Assembly: GCF_014653785.1 (NCBI RefSeq) | Contig: NZ_BNAS01000004.1 | Location: 255,046-319,045, forward strand | Direction of reading: 5' to 3' | Length of the DNA: 64,000 nt | Origin: Promicromonospora soli | GTDB taxonomy: Bacteria; Actinomycetota; Actinomycetes; Actinomycetales; Cellulomonadaceae | Part shown: piece after piece, positions 17,200 through 26,202 of the stretch | Position numbering within the stretch: position 1 is the stretch's first letter | How the letters are laid out: every line of letters begins with the position of its first letter | The notes under the pieces: generated by a model | Seen by the model: only the letters and a program-made list of their open reading frames with translations | What the model was told of the DNA's origin: nothing | Databases searched by the model: none | Translations under genes and position numbers: made by a program

Positions 17200-17365
17200 C
17201 AGATCTGTCCCTCGTGACGGGCCGGGCCCTCCACCGCCGTACTGATCTGCGGTTCGCGGTCTATGCCACCAAGTAGTCGTCGGTTCTGGGCTCCTCCGGA
17301 TTTGGGCACTCAACGGCGCCTGCGTACAGCGGTGCGCGCCGGATCCCGTGGGCGACAATGGGCTC

Positions 17366-17956
17366 ATGACCACCGAGCTCTGGATCACCGGCGACCCCGA
17401 CACGGACCGGCTGCTGAGCGACGACCCGTTCGCCCTCCTGGTCGGAATGCTTCTCGACCAGCAGTTCCCGATGGAGCACGCGTTCGCCGGTCCGGGCAAG
17501 ATCCGCGACCGCATGGGCTCCTTCGACGTGCGGGCCATCGCCGACGCCGACCCCGACGAGTTCGTGACCATGGCGACCACTCCCCCGGCGATCCACCGAT
17601 ATGGCCGGTCCATGGCAGGCCGTGTGCTGGAGCTCGCGCGCGCGATAGTCGACGAGTACGACGGCGACGCCGCGAGGATCTGGACCACGCCCGGAGCCGA
17701 CGGCGGCGCCCCGACGGGCGCCGAGGTGCTCAAGCGGCTCAACGCCCTGCCCGGCTACGGGGAGCGCAAGGCCAAGATCTTCCTCGCCCTGCTCGGCAAG
17801 CAGCGCGGCGTCCAGCCGGAGGGCTGGCGCGAGGCGGCGGGCGAGTTCGGCGAGGACGGCTCGCGCCGCTCGATCGCGGACGTGACCAGCGCGGAGACGT
17901 TGCAGGAGGTCCGTGCGTTCAAGAAGGCCCAGAAGGCGGCGGCCAAGAACGCCTGA
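17366..17956 (+). CDS. HhH-GPD-type base-excision repair protein
   Basis: The 196 residues start at MTTELWITGD. They match a family of small HhH-GPD DNA glycosylase-like proteins, sometimes labelled HesB-like: LLVGMLLDQQFPMEHAFAGP at the N-terminus, a helix-hairpin-helix near LNALPGYGERKAKIFLALLGKQ, and the C-terminal Ala/Lys-rich KKAQKAAAKNA. No iron-sulfur cysteine cluster is visible. It presumably recognises damaged bases; the lesion is unknown. It runs convergently towards the P450 gene with a 40 bp gap. Confidence 0.85.
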   Translation: MTTELWITGDPDTDRLLSDDPFALLVGMLLDQQFPMEHAFAGPGKIRDRMGSFDVRAIADADPDEFVTMATTPPAIHRYGRSMAGRVLELARAIVDEYDGDAARIWTTPGADGGAPTGAEVLKRLNALPGYGERKAKIFLALLGKQRGVQPEGWREAAGEFGEDGSRRSIADVTSAETLQEVRAFKKAQKAAAKNA

Positions 17957-17996
17957 GGGTCTGGGGCGGGCGTGGTGGCGCCGGAGATCCTCGCGG

Positions 17997-19232
17997 TCAG
18001 CGCACCTCGAACCGCACCGGAAGCTGCCACGGCATCGAGGACCACAGGGTCCCCGTGGCGCGCAGCGACTCCAGCGGGACCGTGATCGTCATGCCGCCGA
18101 GGCGGCGCAGCGCCACCTCGACCGCTACCTTCGCGATCACCCTGGCCGGGCGGCGTACCGGGCAGGCGTGCGGGCCGGCGCCCCAGGTGAGGTAGGACAG
18201 GTTGCCGGGCTCGAGCCAGATGTCGTCGCCGGACGCGCGCGACTCCGCGCTCGCGCCCAGGATGCCCGGCACGACCGCGTCGCCGGCCCGGATCTTGCGT
18301 TGTCCGAGCACCGTGTCGGCCAGCGCGTAGCGCGGCGCCGTGTTGCTCGCCGGCGGGATCGAGCCGAGGACGGCCTCCAGCGTGTCCGACGCCGACAGCC
18401 GGCCGCCGGACCGTGCGTCGAACCGCGGGTCCGTCAGCTGCATCCGCAGCGACTGCGTGATCCACGCGACCTCGAACTCGCTGCCCAGGACGAGCATGGT
18501 CGAGACCGCGCTCTGCACGTCCTCGTCGTTGGGCCGGCTCCGGTGGCGCAGGATCGCCGAGGTCATGTCGTTCGACGGCTGCTTCCGACGCCTGGCGACG
18601 AGGTCCACGATGAGTGTCTTCTGCGCCGCGAGCGCCTCGAGAGCCTCCACGCCCTCGGCCCGGAAGATCTGGCGCGCGTAGCCGAGCATGGCCTGCGCCT
18701 CCGCATGGTCGAGCCCGAACATCGTGGACATTGCGAGCAGCGGGATGGCCCACGCGTACTCACCGACGAGGTCTGCCTCGCCCTTGGCCGCCACCCGGTC
18801 CAGCGTGAGCTCGCACCACTGCCGGACGTTCACCGCGAGGCGGTGCTCGTCGAACCCGTCGAACGCGTCGTCGACGAGGCACCGCAGGTACCGGTGCCGT
18901 TCCCCGTCGACGTAGTAGACGCTGTCGCGCGGGGCGAGGATCGCGCCGACGCCGCTGCCAGCGTCCACGGTGCCGTCCGCGACCAGGCCCCAGTTGCGCG
19001 AGTCGCGCGAGTACAGACGCTCGGTGCGCAGCACCGTGGCCAGCTCCTGGTGCCCCAGCACGAGCCACGCCCGCACACCGGGTACGAGGAGCACGGGAGC
19101 CACGTTGCCCCACCGGTCCCGCAGCCGCTCGTATACCTGGGCGGGATCGGGGCTCGTGGTGGTCTCGATGAGCGGCGTCAGGTCCGCCAGGTCGGCCAGG
19201 CGCTCCGACTGAGTGGTCGTCGTGACTGTCAT
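17997..19232 (-). CDS. Divergent cytochrome P450 lacking the ExxR motif
   Basis: The 411 residues align with bacterial P450s. The haem loop WGAGPHACPV keeps the axial Cys, and the C-helix keeps HxxxR (HRYLR). Three usual features are lost. The K-helix ExxR region reads LEAVLGS (no Glu-Arg pair). The I-helix reads LGSEFEV instead of AGHETT, so the proton-relay Thr is absent. The Gly after the Cys is Val. P450s without ExxR are known from the Streptomyces CYP157 family, so the fold may still bind haem. The gene is divergent from the TrpA-like operon, with a dyad between them. It may do unusual chemistry. Confidence 0.85.
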   Translation of the reverse strand: MTVTTTTQSERLADLADLTPLIETTTSPDPAQVYERLRDRWGNVAPVLLVPGVRAWLVLGHQELATVLRTERLYSRDSRNWGLVADGTVDAGSGVGAILAPRDSVYYVDGERHRYLRCLVDDAFDGFDEHRLAVNVRQWCELTLDRVAAKGEADLVGEYAWAIPLLAMSTMFGLDHAEAQAMLGYARQIFRAEGVEALEALAAQKTLIVDLVARRRKQPSNDMTSAILRHRSRPNDEDVQSAVSTMLVLGSEFEVAWITQSLRMQLTDPRFDARSGGRLSASDTLEAVLGSIPPASNTAPRYALADTVLGQRKIRAGDAVVPGILGASAESRASGDDIWLEPGNLSYLTWGAGPHACPVRRPARVIAKVAVEVALRRLGGMTITVPLESLRATGTLWSSMPWQLPVRFEVR

Positions 19233-19294
19233 TGTCCCCCGGCTCTCGGGCGCGACGGGGCGCCGGCGCGTCGTTGGGCGGAATGTATCGCATG

Positions 19295-19313
19295 TCCGAT
19301 GACCAGTATCGGA
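19295..19313. promoter_or_regulatory. Inverted repeat in the divergent P450 / TrpA-operon promoter region
   Basis: TCCGAT-n7-ATCGGA has perfect 6 bp arms. It sits 63 bp from the P450 start and 80 bp from the opposite gene. A TACTCT -10-like hexamer (19382-19387) lies six bases before the ATG at 19394, suggesting a leaderless transcript. A further TCGGAAG (19325-19335 region) repeats one half-site. Confidence 0.45.
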
Positions 19314-19393
19314 AGCGCGCCGAATGTCGGAAGTAGTTCCTCACGAGGGTCGATATGTACGCATTTTTCCCTGTGCTCGCGTACTCTGTGGCC

Positions 19394-20047
19394 ATGTCAG
19401 ATCCGGCCCCATGGGACGACTACGTCCCCCCGCCTCTGCAGGTTGCTCTGGCTCAGGAGGAGCACCGCCTGGCGTCCAGCAGGAACGTGTTCGCGCTGAT
19501 CAATCCGGACGGGTTGCTGACCATCAAGGACGGGACGCCGCAGGAGGTGCGGGAGGCGGCCGACCCGCTGCACGGCACGGCCGCCAGGGTCACCGTCGTG
19601 GACCCTCGTGGTGAGGTCCCCGGGATCCGTGGGTACCGGCCGGAGGTCGGCCGCGACCTGCCGGAGGAGTACCCGGTCAACCCGGTAGCCCGGCGGGTCA
19701 GGGCGGCTCTGGCGGCCGGGGCGGGGCAGGTTGTCCCGGACGAGGAGCTGCGCGGCAATCTGGCCTTGTGCGCGGTGGACGTCGACGGCAAGACCGAGGT
19801 GGGCCTGACCGGCTGGCAGCAGCAGCTCATCCGTGTCGCCCACCATGCGGCGCACGCTGCTTCGGGGTGGCTGTCCTCGTTCCGCATCGTCGGCAGGACC
19901 GGGGAGGCAGGGGCCAGCACGGTCTTCCTGCCAGGTCTGCGCGACCCGATGAGCGCAGACGAGGCACGACGCGCCGCACATCAGCTGGCCCTGGTCGCCG
20001 CCTCCGCTGACGACGAGAACTCTCCTGCCCTGCGGCCGCGCTGGTAG
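19394..20047 (+). CDS. Protein of unknown function, first gene of the TrpA-like operon
   Basis: I do not recognise the 217 residues. The sequence is soluble, with no signal peptide or membrane segment. Notable stretches are PWDDYVPPPLQVALAQEEHR, ALINPDGLLTIKDG, LALCAVDVDGKTEVG and LIRVAHHAAHAASGWLSSF; the paired histidines in the last could bind a metal or ligand, which is only a guess. The ATG at 19394 has no clear Shine-Dalgarno but a -10-like TACTCT just upstream. It ends six bases before the TrpA-like ORF, so both are probably one transcript. Confidence 0.65.
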   Translation: MSDPAPWDDYVPPPLQVALAQEEHRLASSRNVFALINPDGLLTIKDGTPQEVREAADPLHGTAARVTVVDPRGEVPGIRGYRPEVGRDLPEEYPVNPVARRVRAALAAGAGQVVPDEELRGNLALCAVDVDGKTEVGLTGWQQQLIRVAHHAAHAASGWLSSFRIVGRTGEAGASTVFLPGLRDPMSADEARRAAHQLALVAASADDENSPALRPRW

Positions 20048-20052
20048 CTGTG

Positions 20053-21168
20053 ATGACCGCCATGGAGAACGGGTACGAGAACGCGGTGTTGGCCGAGGGC
20101 AGGACCGCCGCACTGCTGAGCCGTCTGCGCGAGCAGGAGGGGCGTCCGGCGCTGGTGGGGTACCTCCCGCTGGGGTTCCCAGACCTGGAGCGCAGCATGG
20201 AGGCGCTGTACACGCTGGCTGACAGCGGCGTGGACATCATCGAGCTGGGGATCCCGTACACGGCGCCGGTCATGGACGGGATCGTGATCCAGCAGGCGTC
20301 CCAGATCGCGCTGGAGGCCGGGACACGGGTGGGGCATCTCTTCGATGCGGTGCGCCTGCTGCGCGGGCACGCACCCCAGGTCGAGGTGCTGGTGATGACC
20401 TACTGGGACCCGGTGGTGAGCTACGGCGTGGACGCGTTCGCCCGCGAGCTGAGCGCTGCGGGCGGGGCGGGGCTGATCACCCCGGACCTGGACCCCGGCC
20501 AGGCCGGCCAATGGGTCGCGGCAAGCGATCAGCACGGCCTGGACCGTGTGTTCCTGGTGGCACCGAGCGCGCGACCGGAGCAGCTGGCGGCCGCGACCTC
20601 GACGTCGCGGGGTTTTGTATATGCCGCCTCCACGATGGGTGTCACGGGGACCCGCGCCACGGTGGGTGAACGGGCCGAGAAGCTCGTCACGGACACCAGG
20701 GCCGCCGGGGCGACGCACGTGTGCGTCGGCCTGGGCGTCTCCAACGGCGGCCAGGCGGCCGAGGTCGGGCGATGGGCCGACGGCGTCATCGTCGGCTCGG
20801 TCCTGGTGCGTCCGCTGCTCGGGGACGACCCGTGGGCCGACCAGCTCAAGAGCCTGGCGACCATCACCCGCGAGCTGGCCTCCGGGGTGCGCCGAGCACG
20901 CCGCCCGCAGGTTGTGCCGGACCACCCCGCCCCCATGCTGGAGATGTCGGCCGACAGCACCGCGAGAGGATCCAAGATGCCTAGCACGATGTCGATGCCC
21001 GGCGACGACGAGGAGATCCGCAACGACGTGGACGATGCGATCCGTGCAGGGACGATCTCCGACGAGGAGGTGGCGACGGTTCACAAGCTCCTGGACGAGA
21101 ATCCCGGCCGGTTCAGGTCGTTCAAGGACATCTACGAGATGGCCCGCTCCGCCACGATCAGCGACTGA
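20053..21168 (+). CDS. Stand-alone TrpA-like indole-3-glycerol-phosphate lyase with C-terminal extension
   Basis: Residues ~1-280 form a tryptophan synthase alpha-type TIM barrel. The catalytic Glu (IIELGIPY) and Asp (VMDGIVIQ) corresponding to E49 and D60 of the Salmonella enzyme are kept, as are GVTGTR (loop 6) and the phosphate-binding IVGSVLV. The residue equivalent to D56, which contacts TrpB, is Ala (YTAP). No trpB or other trp gene is near. Residues ~281-371 add a tail with a charged helical end (EEIRNDVDDAIRAGTISDEE) not found in TrpA. It probably releases free indole for a secondary pathway. GTG 20050, ATG 20053 or ATG 20062 may be the start. Confidence 0.85.
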   Translation: MTAMENGYENAVLAEGRTAALLSRLREQEGRPALVGYLPLGFPDLERSMEALYTLADSGVDIIELGIPYTAPVMDGIVIQQASQIALEAGTRVGHLFDAVRLLRGHAPQVEVLVMTYWDPVVSYGVDAFARELSAAGGAGLITPDLDPGQAGQWVAASDQHGLDRVFLVAPSARPEQLAAATSTSRGFVYAASTMGVTGTRATVGERAEKLVTDTRAAGATHVCVGLGVSNGGQAAEVGRWADGVIVGSVLVRPLLGDDPWADQLKSLATITRELASGVRRARRPQVVPDHPAPMLEMSADSTARGSKMPSTMSMPGDDEEIRNDVDDAIRAGTISDEEVATVHKLLDENPGRFRSFKDIYEMARSATISD

Positions 21169-21176
21169 GAGTCGAT

Positions 21177-21216
21177 CCGGCACCCCGTGCTGGCCCTGCG
21201 CCAGGCGGGGTGCCGG
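21177..21216. terminator. Hairpin between convergent genes
   Basis: CCGGCACCCCG (21177-21187) pairs perfectly with CGGGGTGCCGG (21206-21216) across an 18-base loop. It lies just past the TrpA-like stop and before the stop of the minus-strand gene. It has no U-tract, as is common in actinobacteria. Confidence 0.6.
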
Positions 21217-21219
21217 GGT

Positions 21220-21879
21220 TCAGGTGGTGTGTGCTCGGTAGGCGCTGATGAACGCGTAGGCGCTGGGGCGGGTGACAGGGAACTGGTACGAACCGTCGTC
21301 GAGCGCGGGCGCGGTGTAGGTGATGAGGTGCCCTGACGAGAGCAGCCCCCACGGGTCGACGGATCCGATCACGCCGGAGACGATCTGCGGCTCGGGGGCG
21401 ACCAGAGGCGCGGAGGGATAGGCCGCAGACGAGCCGACGTCGGCCGCAAGGCTCAGCGCCCGTCGTGCGCGACGCTCCACGCGGTGCTGGTTGACACGGT
21501 ACGCGCGGACAAAGACCTGGGTGCTCCCGGGCAAGACCTGAAGCTGGGATGAGCCGGGGTCGTCGGTGACCGGTGCGGTGAAGGTGATCTGGTGGCCGGG
21601 ACGCTTGCGTCCGGGGGGCACGACTGACTCGACAGTGCCGGCCACGAGACAGGGCCCGGGGCCGGCCAGGTAGATCAAGGCGGTATCACCTGGCTGGACG
21701 TCGTCCAGGACGTCGATGACGTCGATGACGTCGACAGGAGCGTAGACGCCGGGCGTGTAGCCGGGGCCGGCCAGGTAGATGAACGCGGCGTCCCCGGGCT
21801 GCAGCTCTTCGATGTCGTCGATGACGTCGACGGGCACGTCGGTGTCCACGACCTGGTGGTCACGTCCCCGGGCGCTCAT
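21220..21879 (-). CDS. Unknown protein with internal IYLAGPG repeats
   Basis: The 219 residues start at MSARGRD, overlapping the upstream small ORF (ATGA). Two imperfect copies of VDVID...LQPGDAAFIYLAGPG occur in residues ~12-70, and a second repeated unit appears as GHQITFTAP and GHLITYTAP. Both end in a similar arginine/tyrosine motif (VRAYRVNQHR, ISAYRAHTT). The pattern suggests two duplicated beta-rich domains. It has no signal peptide or membrane helix and I know no family. It runs convergent to the TrpA-like gene and downstream of the flavin monooxygenase. Confidence 0.6.
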   Translation of the reverse strand: MSARGRDHQVVDTDVPVDVIDDIEELQPGDAAFIYLAGPGYTPGVYAPVDVIDVIDVLDDVQPGDTALIYLAGPGPCLVAGTVESVVPPGRKRPGHQITFTAPVTDDPGSSQLQVLPGSTQVFVRAYRVNQHRVERRARRALSLAADVGSSAAYPSAPLVAPEPQIVSGVIGSVDPWGLLSSGHLITYTAPALDDGSYQFPVTRPSAYAFISAYRAHTT

Positions 21880-21950
21880 CGCCAGGAGCCCGGTCGCACG
21901 GTGGGAGCGGGGGCGGTGCACAGGGGCTGGTTGACGAGGTCGTCGTTCAT
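21876..21950 (-). CDS. 24-residue small ORF coupled to the repeat protein
   Basis: An ATG at 21950 with a very good Shine-Dalgarno (GGAGGGCCCC) opens a 24-codon frame beginning MNDDLVNQPL and ending VRPGSWR. Its stop overlaps the start of the next gene (ATGA). It could be a translation-coupling leader, or a ribosomally made precursor peptide given the adjacent P450 and monooxygenase. No known precursor-family signature is visible. Confidence 0.45.
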   Translation of the reverse strand: MNDDLVNQPLCTAPAPTVRPGSWR

Positions 21951-22101
21951 GGGGCCCTCCGGATCGGTCTGGGTATGGTCTGGCTCGACTCGAGAGCACC
22001 GGAACGGGGTTGGTCCGGCGCTCGACGCATTCGCGACCGATCGACGCCCCCACTCCCGTTGGCCTTCGCCCCGGTGGATGTGGCGGCGCCGCCGGCGACG
22101 G

Positions 22102-23610
22102 TCAGGCTCCCGCGGTGGCCTCGGCCCGCGCGATCTTCTTCTTGAGCTTGGCCAGCAGGCCGGAGTAGGCGCTCGGGTCCACGGGGAGCAGCCACTGCAT
22201 CGCCCGGGCACCAGGGGAGACGTCGATCCCGATGTCTTCGAGCGTCTCGTCGATGTTGTGCAGGGAGAACGGCAGGACGTTGGTGCCGCGGGCGTGCCGG
22301 CCGTTCGTGCGTTGCTCCATCCACTGCACTCGCTCGGCGACGATCGCGCGGCGTTCCTTGACGGGCGGAAGGTTGAGCACGCCGGCCAGGTAGGCCCCGA
22401 CCCACAGTGCGCCGACCTCGGCCGACAGCGGGCTGAAGAACGAGGAGTTGTAGCCGGCGAAGGTCAGGTTGGGCACGTCATGGGGCAGGATCTGCTTCCA
22501 CAGCTGGAAGTTCTCCCGCTCGTCGAGCAGCCGCTTGGTGACGACGTCGCCCAGGAAGGGGACGCGCTGGTTGAACCCGGTCCCGCAGATCACGACGTCG
22601 GCCTTCACCGACTCGCCGTTGGTCAGCTCGGCGACGGGCTGTGCGTCGGTGATGACGAACCGGCCGATCTGGGTGTCGCGGTGCACCGCGATGGTCCCGG
22701 CGGCGACCTGCTCGTAGAACCCGTCCGTGGACAGCGAGACGGTGCTGCGGGCGATGTCGGAGAACTCGCCGCGGGGCACCAGGCCGAGCTTCTTCAGCCC
22801 GAGCTGGGAGGTCACCACGGAACCGATCCAGTCGACCAGGCCCTGCCGCACTGCGCTGCCCGGCCCGTGCAGGAAGCGCTCCATGCCGCTGTCCTGGGTC
22901 TGGTACCGGAACAGGTTCTCGCCCAGCCGCGTCAGCAGGAGGTACTTGAAGTTGAGGCCGCCGGCGATCCTCTTGGGCATCTTCCACAGCAGGTGCCGCG
23001 CGACGACCGTGGTGCTGGCCGCGACCTGCCCGATCTCGGCTGCGATGTCGCAGGCGGACTTGCCGTAGCCGACGACCACGACGTGCTTGTCCCGCACCGA
23101 CTCGACGTCGGTGAGCTGGCTGGAGGCCACGAGACGCCCACCGGACCGGACGAAATCGGGATAGCCCTCGAAGCGGGGGATCGTCGGGTCGGAGAATATG
23201 CCGTTGGCGATCACGAGGTGGTCGAAGTGCTCGGGGGGGCGCAGCGAGGCCCCGGCAGGGCGGGCGGTGACCAGCCAGCCGTCATCATCCGGAGTGGGTA
23301 CGACGTTCACCACCTCGGTGGACAGCCGAAATGATGGCTCGAGGCCGAAGGTCCGCACGTATCGCTCGAGGTAAGCCTGGACCTGCTCGCCCGTGGGCCA
23401 CTCCGGGTACTCCTTCGGCATCGGCAGGTCCGAGAACGCGTAGGAATTCCGGTTGTTCTGGGTGCGCAGTCCCGTGTACCGCCGGGTCGCGCTCCATACA
23501 CCGCCGACGTCGGGCGCCTTCTCGAACACGACGACCTCGTGCCCCAGCTCCCTCAGCACCCTTGCGTGGGCGATTCCAGCGAATCCTGCTCCGACGATAG
23601 CGATCCTCAA
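22102..23610 (-). CDS. Flavin-containing (class B) monooxygenase
   Basis: The 502 residues have FAD-binding GAGFAGIAHA, NADPH-binding VVGYGKSACD, the FMO-like stretch FDHLVIANGIFSDP and a late ICGTGFN. That is the two-Rossmann layout of N-hydroxylating or Baeyer-Villiger enzymes. TTG 23610 is favoured because AAGGGG sits six bases upstream; TTG 23616 is closer than workable. In this neighbourhood the substrate could be indole or an indole derivative from the TrpA-like lyase, as FMOs can oxidise indole, but no direct evidence fixes it. Confidence 0.88.
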   Translation of the reverse strand: MRIAIVGAGFAGIAHARVLRELGHEVVVFEKAPDVGGVWSATRRYTGLRTQNNRNSYAFSDLPMPKEYPEWPTGEQVQAYLERYVRTFGLEPSFRLSTEVVNVVPTPDDDGWLVTARPAGASLRPPEHFDHLVIANGIFSDPTIPRFEGYPDFVRSGGRLVASSQLTDVESVRDKHVVVVGYGKSACDIAAEIGQVAASTTVVARHLLWKMPKRIAGGLNFKYLLLTRLGENLFRYQTQDSGMERFLHGPGSAVRQGLVDWIGSVVTSQLGLKKLGLVPRGEFSDIARSTVSLSTDGFYEQVAAGTIAVHRDTQIGRFVITDAQPVAELTNGESVKADVVICGTGFNQRVPFLGDVVTKRLLDERENFQLWKQILPHDVPNLTFAGYNSSFFSPLSAEVGALWVGAYLAGVLNLPPVKERRAIVAERVQWMEQRTNGRHARGTNVLPFSLHNIDETLEDIGIDVSPGARAMQWLLPVDPSAYSGLLAKLKKKIARAEATAGA

Positions 23611-23736
23611 CGCCAACCCCTTGCTTCCTCGAACCAGACGATCAACGACTCGGGCAATCCGGTCGAATCGTACCCGCTCGCAGAGTCGAGCTGCAGGTGG
23701 CGGGCGGTGTGCGCTCTTGTCCCGATGGTGGGACCG

Positions 23737-24612
23737 TCACCGCCGCCGGTAGGCCGTGGCCAGCACCGACACCGTCACCTGCTCGGGCAGCTCGCCGTCG
23801 TCGGACAGCTCCGCCTCGGTCACGTGGCGCGCGCTCGGCGTCATCAGCACCAGGTCGACGGCCTCCCTCGGCGTCAGGGGCGTCGTGTACTCGACCTGCA
23901 CCGTGCGCGCCGTCTCGAAGTAGGGATCCAGCGCCTGGTGGAGGCGCCGCTCCTTGTCCGGGTCGACGGTCACCATCTGCGTGACCTGGCGGCGCAGCTC
24001 GGCGAGGTGCCCGCCGAAGGGCCGCACCACGACCAGGACGCCGCTGGGGCGCAGCACCCGATGGAACTCGGCCGGGTTGCGCGGGGCGAACACGTCCAGC
24101 ACCACGTCCACCTGCTCCGACGCTATCGGGAACGGCCGGAACACGTCCCAGGTCGCGGCGGCGGCCCGCTCGTGCGCCTTGGCCGCCGCGCGCAAGGCAT
24201 GTGCGGACGTGTCCAGGCCCAGGCCGACGGCGTCGGGCAGCGCGTCGAGCACCCCGGCGAGGTAGTAGCCGGTGCCGCAGCCGACGTCGATGACGGTGGC
24301 CGGCCGCCCGGGCCGGCCCGTGCGCCCCGCGGCGAGGTCGGCCTCGGTGGCGAGGTTCGCCACGGCCCGGCGGATGGGCGCGTACCGGCCGGCGGCCAGG
24401 AACTCCCTCCGGGCCCGGGCCATCGGCCCATCGTCCCCGCTGGTCGCGCGCGCACCGGTCAGCAGGCCGACGTATCCGTGCCGGGCGACGTCGAAGGAGT
24501 GGCGCTGCGGGCACCGCAGCGCACCGTCGCCGGGCGACAGCTCCTCGCCGCACGACGGGCAGCGCAGCAGCGGGAGGACCGGGTCGAGAGCAGCGGGAAG
24601 GGATACGGGCAC
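23737..24612 (-). CDS. RlmA-like 23S rRNA (guanine-N1) methyltransferase family protein
   Basis: The 291 residues begin with a zinc-binding module (CPSCGEEL ... LRCPQRHSFD) followed by a class I SAM domain (VIDVGCGTGYYL, LGLDTSAHAL, DVVLDVFAPRNPAEFHRVLRPSG). This order defines RlmA-I/RlmA-II enzymes, which methylate G745 or G748 of 23S rRNA; in antibiotic producers the homologue TlrB gives tylosin resistance. GTG 24612 with AAAGGAG upstream is the best start. Its place next to a candidate biosynthetic cluster makes a resistance role worth considering. Confidence 0.88.
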   Translation of the reverse strand: MPVSLPAALDPVLPLLRCPSCGEELSPGDGALRCPQRHSFDVARHGYVGLLTGARATSGDDGPMARARREFLAAGRYAPIRRAVANLATEADLAAGRTGRPGRPATVIDVGCGTGYYLAGVLDALPDAVGLGLDTSAHALRAAAKAHERAAAATWDVFRPFPIASEQVDVVLDVFAPRNPAEFHRVLRPSGVLVVVRPFGGHLAELRRQVTQMVTVDPDKERRLHQALDPYFETARTVQVEYTTPLTPREAVDLVLMTPSARHVTEAELSDDGELPEQVTVSVLATAYRRR

Positions 24613-24647
24613 GAGCACACTCCTTTCAGCGACAGTGGGGCGAACGG

Positions 24648-25703
24648 CTAGACGCGGCCCTCCGGGACCGGGTTCGCCGCCCGCCCCTCGGTCGACAGGA
24701 GCAGGACGACGGCGTCGGGCCGCAGGCCGATCGCCGCCCGCCACCCGGGCTGCCCCAGCACCAGGCGGGCCGCGGCGAGGGTCGCCGCCCCGCACGGCCC
24801 GGAGTCGACGCCGAACCGCGCCAGGTCGTCGACGGCGGCCGCCGCCTGGTCGTCCGAGACGGTGACCGCGCCGTCGAGCCCGTCCCGCAGCACGGGCCAC
24901 GCGAGCGCGGAGACGGTGCCGCAGTTGAGGCCGGTCATGATCGTGTCGCCGGTCGGCACGGTCACCGGCCTGCCCGCACGCAGCGACGCGACCAGCCCCG
25001 CGGCGCGGTCGGGCTCAACGGCGAGCAGCGCGCCGCCGTCGGCCCCCTTGCCCCTGTAGTGGCTCACCACGGCCTGCGCGAACGAGCCGACACCGACCGG
25101 CACCACCACCAGGTCCGGCGCGGCAAGCCCCAGGGCGGCCAGCTGGTCATCGGTCTCGAGGCACAGCGTCGAGTAGCCGTCGACTATCCACCGGGGGACG
25201 TCCGTGTACCCGGGCCAGGACGTGTCCTGCACCAGCACCGCCTCCGGGTCGACGGCCGCCTCAGCGGCCGCGCGAGCCACGGCGTCGTCGTAGGTGCCGT
25301 CGACCTCGACGGCCTGCGCACCCTCCGCGCCGATGGCCTTCTTCGCGGCCACCGTGATGCCCGGCGGGTAGTAGATGGTCGCGGCCGCACCGATCATGGC
25401 GGCAACGTGGGCGACGGCGCGGCCGTGGTTCCCGTCCGTGGCGGCATACAGCCGGACGGCGCGGCCCCGGACGGCGTCGCGCACCGCGCCCAGGGTGACC
25501 GCGGACAGCCCGAACCGCTCCCCCAGCGCCCGCGCCGTCGCGTAGGACGCGCCGAGAATCTTGAACGCCGGCAGCCCGAGCCGGCTCGACTCCTCCTTGA
25601 CCAGCACCCGTCCGACGCCGAGCTCCGCCGCGAGCCGTGGCACGTCCCGCAACGGCGTCGGCGCGTATCCGGGCAGGGTGCGGTGAAAGTCGATGGCGGG
25701 CAT
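24648..25703 (-). CDS. Diaminopropionate ammonia-lyase-like PLP enzyme
   Basis: The 351 residues have the fold-type II PLP layout of DpaL: PTPLRDVPRLAAELGVGRVLVKEESSR near the start, the PLP lysine in LPAFKILGASYA, the ATDGNHGRAVAHVA loop, YYPPGITVAAKK, VPVGVGSFAQAVVSHY and SGPCGAATLAA. DpaL converts 2,3-diaminopropionate to pyruvate and two ammonia molecules. The protein is shorter than typical 370-400-residue members but no motif is missing. A role in nitrogen recovery would agree with the rest of the window. Confidence 0.87.
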   Translation of the reverse strand: MPAIDFHRTLPGYAPTPLRDVPRLAAELGVGRVLVKEESSRLGLPAFKILGASYATARALGERFGLSAVTLGAVRDAVRGRAVRLYAATDGNHGRAVAHVAAMIGAAATIYYPPGITVAAKKAIGAEGAQAVEVDGTYDDAVARAAAEAAVDPEAVLVQDTSWPGYTDVPRWIVDGYSTLCLETDDQLAALGLAAPDLVVVPVGVGSFAQAVVSHYRGKGADGGALLAVEPDRAAGLVASLRAGRPVTVPTGDTIMTGLNCGTVSALAWPVLRDGLDGAVTVSDDQAAAAVDDLARFGVDSGPCGAATLAAARLVLGQPGWRAAIGLRPDAVVLLLSTEGRAANPVPEGRV

Positions 25704-25746
25704 ATGGTCGATTGTCCCCGACGCTCGGCCGGGACTCCGACCCCGG

Positions 25747-26202
25747 TCAGAGCAGCCCGACCGCCGCGAGCGCCGTCGCCACGACACCGGCGAGCGTGCG
25801 CACATGGTTCCACGCGGTCCATGGCCGCCGGTAGGCGCGCCAGCCCGCTGCCTTGTCCTGCGCTGCGAGGAGGCGGTTGTTGAGGGGCACGTTCACGGCA
25901 GCGGTGACGCCGAAGGTGCCGACCAGGTAGACCGCGGCGGCCGCGAGAATCCAGGCGCCGCCGTCGCGCCCGTCGACGAGGCCCCAGATGCCGGTGCCCG
26001 CCGGGACGAGGAGGGCACCGAAGAAGACGCTCATGAACGCGGGCAGCGGTGCAGTCTCGTTGATGCCGTTCATCGCGGCCCCGGCGGCGGCGTCGTCGGC
26101 ACGGGCGAGGCCGCTCATGATGAACGACGAGAAGCCGAAGAACACACCCGCCGAGACCCCGAGCAGCACCACCGATGCCACGGCGAAGATCGTCCACACC
26201 AT
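25747..26202 (-). CDS. DUF1772 (anthrone-oxygenase-like) membrane protein
   Basis: The 151 residues have four hydrophobic segments (FAVASVVLLGVSAGVFFGFS, FMSVFFGALLVPAGTGIW, WILAAAAVYLVGTFGVTAAV, LAGVVATALAAVGLL). Conserved NVPLNNRLLA and WRAYRRPWTAWNHVRT match DUF1772. A few fungal relatives oxidise anthrones, but most bacterial members are uncharacterised. It is on the same strand as the ammonia-lyase gene, 43 bp upstream. Confidence 0.87.
   Translation of the reverse strand: MVWTIFAVASVVLLGVSAGVFFGFSSFIMSGLARADDAAAGAAMNGINETAPLPAFMSVFFGALLVPAGTGIWGLVDGRDGGAWILAAAAVYLVGTFGVTAAVNVPLNNRLLAAQDKAAGWRAYRRPWTAWNHVRTLAGVVATALAAVGLL

Follow-up and report, generated by a model that had tools for sequence, protein, structure and literature searches.

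The window analysed here is a stretch of 64,000 nucleotides from Promicromonospora soli (G000:C4:255046-319045; genome of 5.38 Mb in 20 contigs). Between two core genes of the genus it carries a gene for a paralogue of TrpA, the tryptophan synthase alpha subunit, set among genes for a cytochrome P450, a flavin monooxygenase (FMO)-like protein and two proteins, u1 and u2, without family assignment. The original prediction joined these in one biosynthetic cluster for an oxidised indole. All the genes it listed, including a 24-codon open reading frame (ORF) and an RlmA-type methyltransferase gene, are present where it placed them, and all of those listed are open frames. The term 'block' is used in what follows for the unit formed by u1, trpA, u2, the small ORF and the FMO-like gene. 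The features of the locus, including one pyridoxal phosphate (PLP) enzyme gene, are:

17348..17956, plus strand: HhH-GPD glycosylase gene (hhh); left flank, genus core gene, outside the block
17997..19232, minus strand: CvnE-related cytochrome P450 gene; heme Cys present, ExxR and I-helix Thr lost; a separate module
19325..23690, no single strand: block u1-trpA-u2/small ORF-FMO, including promoter regions; 83.6% DNA identity to P. umidemergens
19394..20047, plus strand: u1, 217 aa; matches no family; TACTCT-N6-ATG start
20050..20910, plus strand: TrpA (indole-glycerol-phosphate lyase) domain; Asp56 changed to Ala and Asn104 to Asp; Glu49, Asp60, Thr183, Gly234 and Ser235 retained
20050-21168, plus strand: TrpA-like gene, whole; open frame, GTG start
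20977..21165, plus strand: C-terminal module of the TrpA-like protein, 63 aa; same frame as TrpA, matches no family
21220..21879, minus strand: u2, 219 aa; matches no family; tandem 35-aa repeat near the N-terminus
21876..21950, minus strand: 24-codon ORF; stop overlaps the u2 start (ATGA)
22102..23616, minus strand: FMO-like flavoprotein gene of a divergent lineage; a genus gene, usual site between CvnE and ligA
23740..24615, minus strand: RlmA-type methyltransferase gene (rlmA); right flank, genus core gene, outside the block
24648-25805: fold-type-II PLP gene (dapal-like); scored as diaminopropionate ammonia-lyase, 292 bits against a cut-off of 276

Comparisons within the genus used 13 Promicromonospora genomes, P. 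soli and P. umidemergens (G123; locus NZ_JAMTCT010000028.1, DSM 22081) among them. The 5.6 kb between hhh and rlmA are a composite insertion between two core genes, not a single inherited cluster. DNA alignment divides the locus into backbone to 17959, a P450 module at 17968-19298 (88.7% identity to G117:C6), the block at 19325-23690 and backbone again from 23736. The block is 4.37 kb long, and its gene order is identical in P. umidemergens. In G087, 93 bp separate the two backbone ends. All eight relatives fetched share the backbone order hhh, rlmA, dapal-like, 25747, 27800; hhh and rlmA are spaced by at most 0.8 kb in four of them (G006, G031, G087, G097), and the junction holds other cargo in the other four (G123, G117, G064, G048). 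The hhh-rlmA junction is a variable site of the genus. By eye, its cargo includes TetR and glycosyltransferase-like genes in G117, G123 and G064, and other genes in G048. The RlmA-type gene was noted just beyond the cluster and is indeed there, as a core flank in 8/8 loci; its best scores are to MyrA/ChrB-type G748 methyltransferases, 208 and 199 bits, far under the cut-offs of 625 and 620.

Among the genomes searched the block occurs in two only, those of P. soli and P. umidemergens. In the latter it lies between CvnE and ligA, downstream of cvnA, B, C and D, with u1-trpA-u2 between CvnE and the FMO-like gene; these cvn genes form a conservon, an actinobacterial G-protein system. The synteny across relatives that the original prediction called for is there for the u1-trpA-u2-FMO order, in 2 of the 13 genus genomes, and fails for the P450 gene, which lies elsewhere.

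Between the window and P. umidemergens, the ratio of nonsynonymous to synonymous substitution rates (dN/dS) is 0.28 for the TrpA domain, 0.30 for u1, 0.28 for the FMO and 0.45 for u2; the block genes are under purifying selection. The dS between the two blocks is 0.21-0.27 (0.46 for u2), and two core genes measured 0.23 and 0.35. Since block dS resembles core-gene dS, the split of the block between the species is not recent. Seven conservon-region genes are 85-97% identical among P. soli, P. umidemergens, G048, G031 and G117, and in all seven P. soli is nearest or equal nearest to G117, a block-free genome. Either the block was transferred or it is an old polymorphism. A spare TrpA paralogue and unrelated neighbours could also have been assembled by chance at an insertion hotspot, with no joint function. 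The different cargo carried by the junction in other species, the different source loci of P450 and block, and the degenerate look of a long TrpA in G097 (below) fit such an account, but it leaves unexplained why u1, trpA, u2 and FMO stand together at two loci in two species, why dN/dS is 0.28-0.45 in the block genes (C-terminal module apart) and why the usual genus FMO lineage is absent where the block occurs; we regard it as improbable.

The TrpA-like protein scores 197.5 bits with TIGR00262 (cut-off 102.35) and 209 bits with PF00290 (cut-off 27). No TrpB gene adjoins it, as the original prediction had said; the nearest fold-type-II PLP gene is the dapal-like one, a flanking core gene. The concern raised at the outset, that this might be the sole TrpA of the genome, falls away: a second TrpA, to which it is 64% identical, lies at G000:C1:147027-147719, with TrpB (TIGR00263, 598 bits, cut-off 392) and TrpC just upstream. 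TrpA matches were found in 199 of 200 family genomes, and G048 and G064 have a second match each.

The TrpA alignment has 21 rows: the window copy, the 19 best-matching loci of the family search (not a random sample) and the genome's canonical copy; L002 and L003, duplicates of the window copy, were excluded. Compared with the 18 canonical rows, the window and P. umidemergens copies both keep Glu49, Asp60, Tyr102, Tyr175, the loop-6 GVTG, Gly213, Gly234 and Ser235, so that every catalytic or phosphate-binding position checked is retained; the catalytic Glu49 and Asp60 are residues 63 and 74 of the aligned window protein. Of the 136 columns invariant in the canonical rows, only nine are identically altered in the two block copies, among them positions 56 and 104, which are Asp and Asn in 18/18 canonical rows and Ala and Asp in the block copies. 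The Asn104 position is presumed from the aligned TYWN motif. Numbering is tied through chain positions Asp64 and Asp68 of Mycobacterium tuberculosis TrpA, which are Asp56 and Asp60 of S. typhimurium TrpA (PMC6608616). According to the same source, changes at Asp56 or Pro57 cause a significant activity drop in the TrpAB complex only, not in the alpha subunit alone, and Asn104 is listed as an interface residue in PMC8187860. Because these two TrpB-interface residues are altered while the active-site positions are retained, the TrpA-like enzyme is predicted to have lost its coupling to TrpB but not its chemistry.

Among the matches listed, those that run into the C-terminal part are the window protein, that of P. 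umidemergens (79%) and that of G097 (57%). In the tree these three long TrpAs split from all 18 canonical rows (98/96), and the eight canonical rows from Promicromonospora make up one clade (100/98); recent duplication of the host trpA is rejected on these two groupings. After P. umidemergens, the rows nearest to the window copy by path are four of genus g14, and the G097 copy is a long branch whose placement is unsure. Across the three long TrpAs, 25 residues of the C-terminal module are invariant. The module has no convincing relative in the 394 class genomes, where matches in eight others at E 7e-4 to 0.009 are judged noise. A phage family of unknown function, phrog_26462, matches the TrpA domain (E 8e-27); TrpA-like proteins thus occur in phages.

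The long TrpA of G097 (L027 9057-10232) has lost Pro57, Tyr102, Gly181, Gly184, Gly213 and Gly234, keeps its frame and C-terminal module, and is probably inactive; the G097 genome has neither u1 nor u2. The TrpA fold might serve as a non-catalytic binder, whether a sensor of indole-3-glycerol phosphate, indole or phosphate, or a scaffold, that works with u1, the C-terminal module and the CvnE-related P450 as a signalling input. That all three long TrpAs carry the module, including one with a broken phosphate site, speaks for a binder, as does the loss of ExxR from the P450, and CvnE/CvnF-type proteins have been proposed as modulators of CvnA (PMC13343842). Against this, all catalytic and phosphate-binding positions checked are kept in the block copies, which would not be required of a pure binder, and we consider a binder unlikely, though it deserves a serious hearing.

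Proteins u1 and u2 were described at the outset as without assignment, and this stands: neither matches a Pfam or NCBIfam family above cut-off, nor anything in PHROGs or PADLOC at E 0.1. Each is found in the same two of the 13 genus genomes. For u1, 17 others of the 394 class genomes gave matches at E 5e-4 to 0.008 that cover short stretches, not the same ones throughout, and are judged noise; a pattern scan of genome contigs, which detects close relatives only, found one true locus, that of P. umidemergens, and no relative was found in viral contigs (pattern scan), plasmids or PDB sequences. In the order sample u2 was found in 1/198, itself; viral contigs and plasmids gave none, and PDB sequences one match at E 0.91. 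The structure models have mean pLDDT (predicted local distance difference test) values of 37.5 for u1 and 48.2 for u2, the latter a low-confidence, beta-rich model with which Foldseek returned nothing under E 0.07; we claim no fold for u2. Derivation of u1 from a conservon protein was rejected, since hhalign against CvnB, CvnD and CvnE, with LigA as control, gave no signal, and no TrpB model matched u1.

The u1 stop codon lies 2 nt ahead of the GTG of the TrpA-like gene. Six bases upstream of the u1 ATG (19394) stands TACTCT, in both species. We take TACTCT-N6-ATG to be a leaderless actinobacterial promoter pattern; the start suggests that u1 transcription is leaderless. The u2 proteins of the two species are 69% identical. 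The tandem repeat of u2 lies at 21656-21830, with a spacing of 105 nt and 81% identity over 70 nt, and two more internally similar segments can be seen by eye. The 24-codon ORF is preceded by a Shine-Dalgarno-like GGAGGG. Its counterpart in P. umidemergens has 32 codons (L026 12477-12572), with both ends and the ATGA overlap retained; by eye, the start and Shine-Dalgarno region differ by one change in the first 38 nt. The small ORF may be a cis-acting leader.

Class B FMOs carry the signature FxGxxxHxxx(F/Y). The FMO-like protein matches PF00743 with 125 bits (cut-off 22), and among solved structures it is closest to 8z17 and 8z12 (E 1e-35), with most of the alignment in the N-terminal 220 residues. 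An FMO-like gene is found in 13/13 genus genomes, and all 13 rows have Ala at the signature-His position. The other 11 genomes have one such gene each (E 1e-40), 67-70% identical to that of the window. It lies between CvnE and ligA in the three conservons fetched (G048, G031, G117) and, by coordinates, beside a CvnE-type P450 in seven more, making 10 of the 11 block-free genomes; in G128, a 210-contig assembly, the two genes are on different contigs. G021, from another genus, has the order CvnD-CvnE-FMO-ligA. At E 1e-60, the FMO was found in 11/394 class genomes.

Identity is 88% between the two block FMOs and 64-69% between them and the other 11; the latter, 82-98% identical mutually, form a clade that excludes the block FMOs (100/99). 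In the C7 conservon of P. soli, CvnE is followed by ligA, the matched parts being 70 bp apart. As this site is empty and the window FMO is the sole FMO-like gene of the genome, the FMO either left the conservon site or was lost, the block supplying a copy of its own. The absence of the usual genus lineage where the block occurs suggests that the block FMO took over from it.

With Pfam the P450 gives a weak score of 12.8 bits, under the cut-off of 22.8; its residues 36-408 align to solved P450s, best to 1gwi, CYP154C1 (E 1.5e-30). The heme-ligand Cys is kept (WGAGPHAC). ExxR in the K-helix and a Thr in the I-helix are described as P450 motifs in PMC3599690, where CYP157 is described as lacking ExxR and as linked to conservons. 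The 'odd P450' of the original prediction was well named, both motifs being gone. Orthologues lie at another locus, at 83-86% identity in 3 of 12 relatives and as an 83% fragment in G077; in G006 and G087 a sister copy lies in tandem with the orthologue. At the syntenic site on C6, P. soli has one P450, 77% identical to that of the window; P. umidemergens has none above 74%. Plasmid records matching the window P450 number 304; the two best were opened, and both are conservon P450s in cvnA-B-C-D-P450 order. The window P450 gene is divergent to u1 and stands outside any conservon, none of the four DUF742 matches in P. soli being on contig C4. For the CvnE-type P450 of P. umidemergens (L026 8663-9886) there is also a match, at 62.7 bits against a cut-off of 343, to P450-derived glycosyltransferase activators (TIGR04515).

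These results bear on the oxidised-indole cluster first proposed, in which the TrpA-like lyase would release indole and the FMO and P450 would oxidise it. A single cluster of six genes is not supported: the P450 is at a different locus in relatives, and the FMO-like gene is general in the genus. The TrpA, FMO-like and P450 genes are adjacent in the window, and FMO-like and P450 genes flank u1-trpA-u2 in P. umidemergens too, but the two P450s (the latter being CvnE) are 43% identical paralogues from different loci, 11 genomes without u1 or u2 keep the FMO-like gene as well, and no transporter or regulator gene was seen within 17997-23616. The P450 and FMO-like signatures are missing, so oxygenase activity cannot be assumed, and for these two proteins signalling appears as likely as oxidation. 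We give an oxidised-indole cluster little credence.

The actinomycete indole-prenyltransferase clusters described in PMC3617294, which have a tryptophanase or a tryptophan-oxidising FMO, all have a conservon. CvnA kinases that lack sensory domains are accompanied by accessory proteins, CvnE and CvnF, which are proposed as histidine kinase inputs; CvnF8 stimulates CvnA8 and, by that source's account, its work on CvnF8 was the first biochemical assessment of either accessory type (PMC13343842). With its place between CvnE and the FMO-like gene, the TrpA paralogue adds another example of indole-related genes beside a conservon, and the link is testable because the prenyltransferase clusters are also conservon-linked.

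As conservons accompany indole clusters and the TrpA paralogue lies between CvnE and the FMO-like gene, we tentatively favour, with confidence a little short of even, a TrpB-uncoupled indole-glycerol-phosphate lyase that serves as the indole source in a conservon accessory module. The block, a rare accessory element that belongs next to a conservon, would encode a TrpA paralogue freed from TrpB that most likely splits indole-3-glycerol phosphate, releasing free indole rather than passing it to TrpB. The product of the gene 2 nt upstream, u1, would be its likely cognate partner, and the C-terminal module fused to it would serve in docking or regulation. Both the FMO-like protein and the CvnE-related P450-like one would act on indole or sense it, by oxidation or signalling, and indole would thereby be coupled to the signalling system that adjoins the block in P. 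umidemergens. A stricter form, in which a TrpA-derived, TrpB-independent lyase and the unrelated partner u1 make an indole signal feeding the CvnE-type G-protein system, seems to us improbable as a whole.

Several points weigh against the uncoupled lyase as indole source. With two block genomes, co-occurrence carries little statistical weight. No conservon adjoins the block in the window; the counterpart of the P. umidemergens conservon is on another contig. The C-terminal module is fast evolving (dN/dS 0.88, window against P. umidemergens). The interface residues were chosen after the alignment was seen, and the G097 long TrpA also has Asp at position 104, with Asp at aligned position 56 next to a gap. 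The G097 copy means that a TrpA fold can persist without chemistry, or else is decaying. The P450 has EAVL in the K-helix in place of ExxR and no I-helix Thr (GSEFEVAW), and in the FMO-like protein Ala replaces the signature His of the closest solved FMO.

If the lyase proposal is true, the block would be a natural test of how a stand-alone indole lyase evolves outside plants, with TrpB contacts lost and the active site kept. Few conservon inputs have been established, and the recurrent link between conservons and indole genes gives a concrete ligand to try. On the stricter form of the proposal, the block would be the third such link, after tryptophanase and the tryptophan-oxidising FMO, and CvnE-type conservons would sense indoles. 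The region joins two modules whose source loci differ from each other and from the present one, and cluster assembly can be traced here in progress.

The window protein shares with TrpA (TIGR00262) its fold, its identity to the genome's own copy, Glu49, Asp60, the loop-6 GVTG and the phosphate-binding Gly-Ser; it differs in having no adjoining trpB, in the changes at Asp56 and Asn104, in the C-terminal module and in branching outside the canonical rows. Like the stand-alone-lyase TrpA of C. glutamicum, as presented in PMC9100643, it is TrpA-derived, has the same catalytic pair and is expected to be independent of TrpB. Engineering of the maize tryptophan synthase alpha subunit proceeded by loop-6 changes in the accounts of PMC9100643 and PMC11574760, whereas the predicted route of the window copy is loss of interface residues. 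A pseudoenzyme resembling the tryptophan synthase beta subunit activates the plant alpha subunit to release indole (PMC12727527), which parallels the idea of a dedicated TrpA partner, but u1 matches no family, TrpB models included.

CvnE/CYP157-type P450s, as described in PMC13343842 and PMC3599690, share with the window P450 the loss of ExxR, and its two best plasmid relatives stand in the same conservon order; unlike them, the window P450 is outside a conservon and divergent to u1. The conservon-linked Type A (tryptophanase) and Type B (FMO SCO7468) clusters outlined in PMC3617294 likewise combine indole chemistry and an FMO with a conservon and, in some cases, a P450; the present locus shows neither an indole prenyltransferase nor a tryptophanase and has in their place a TrpA paralogue and two orphan proteins.

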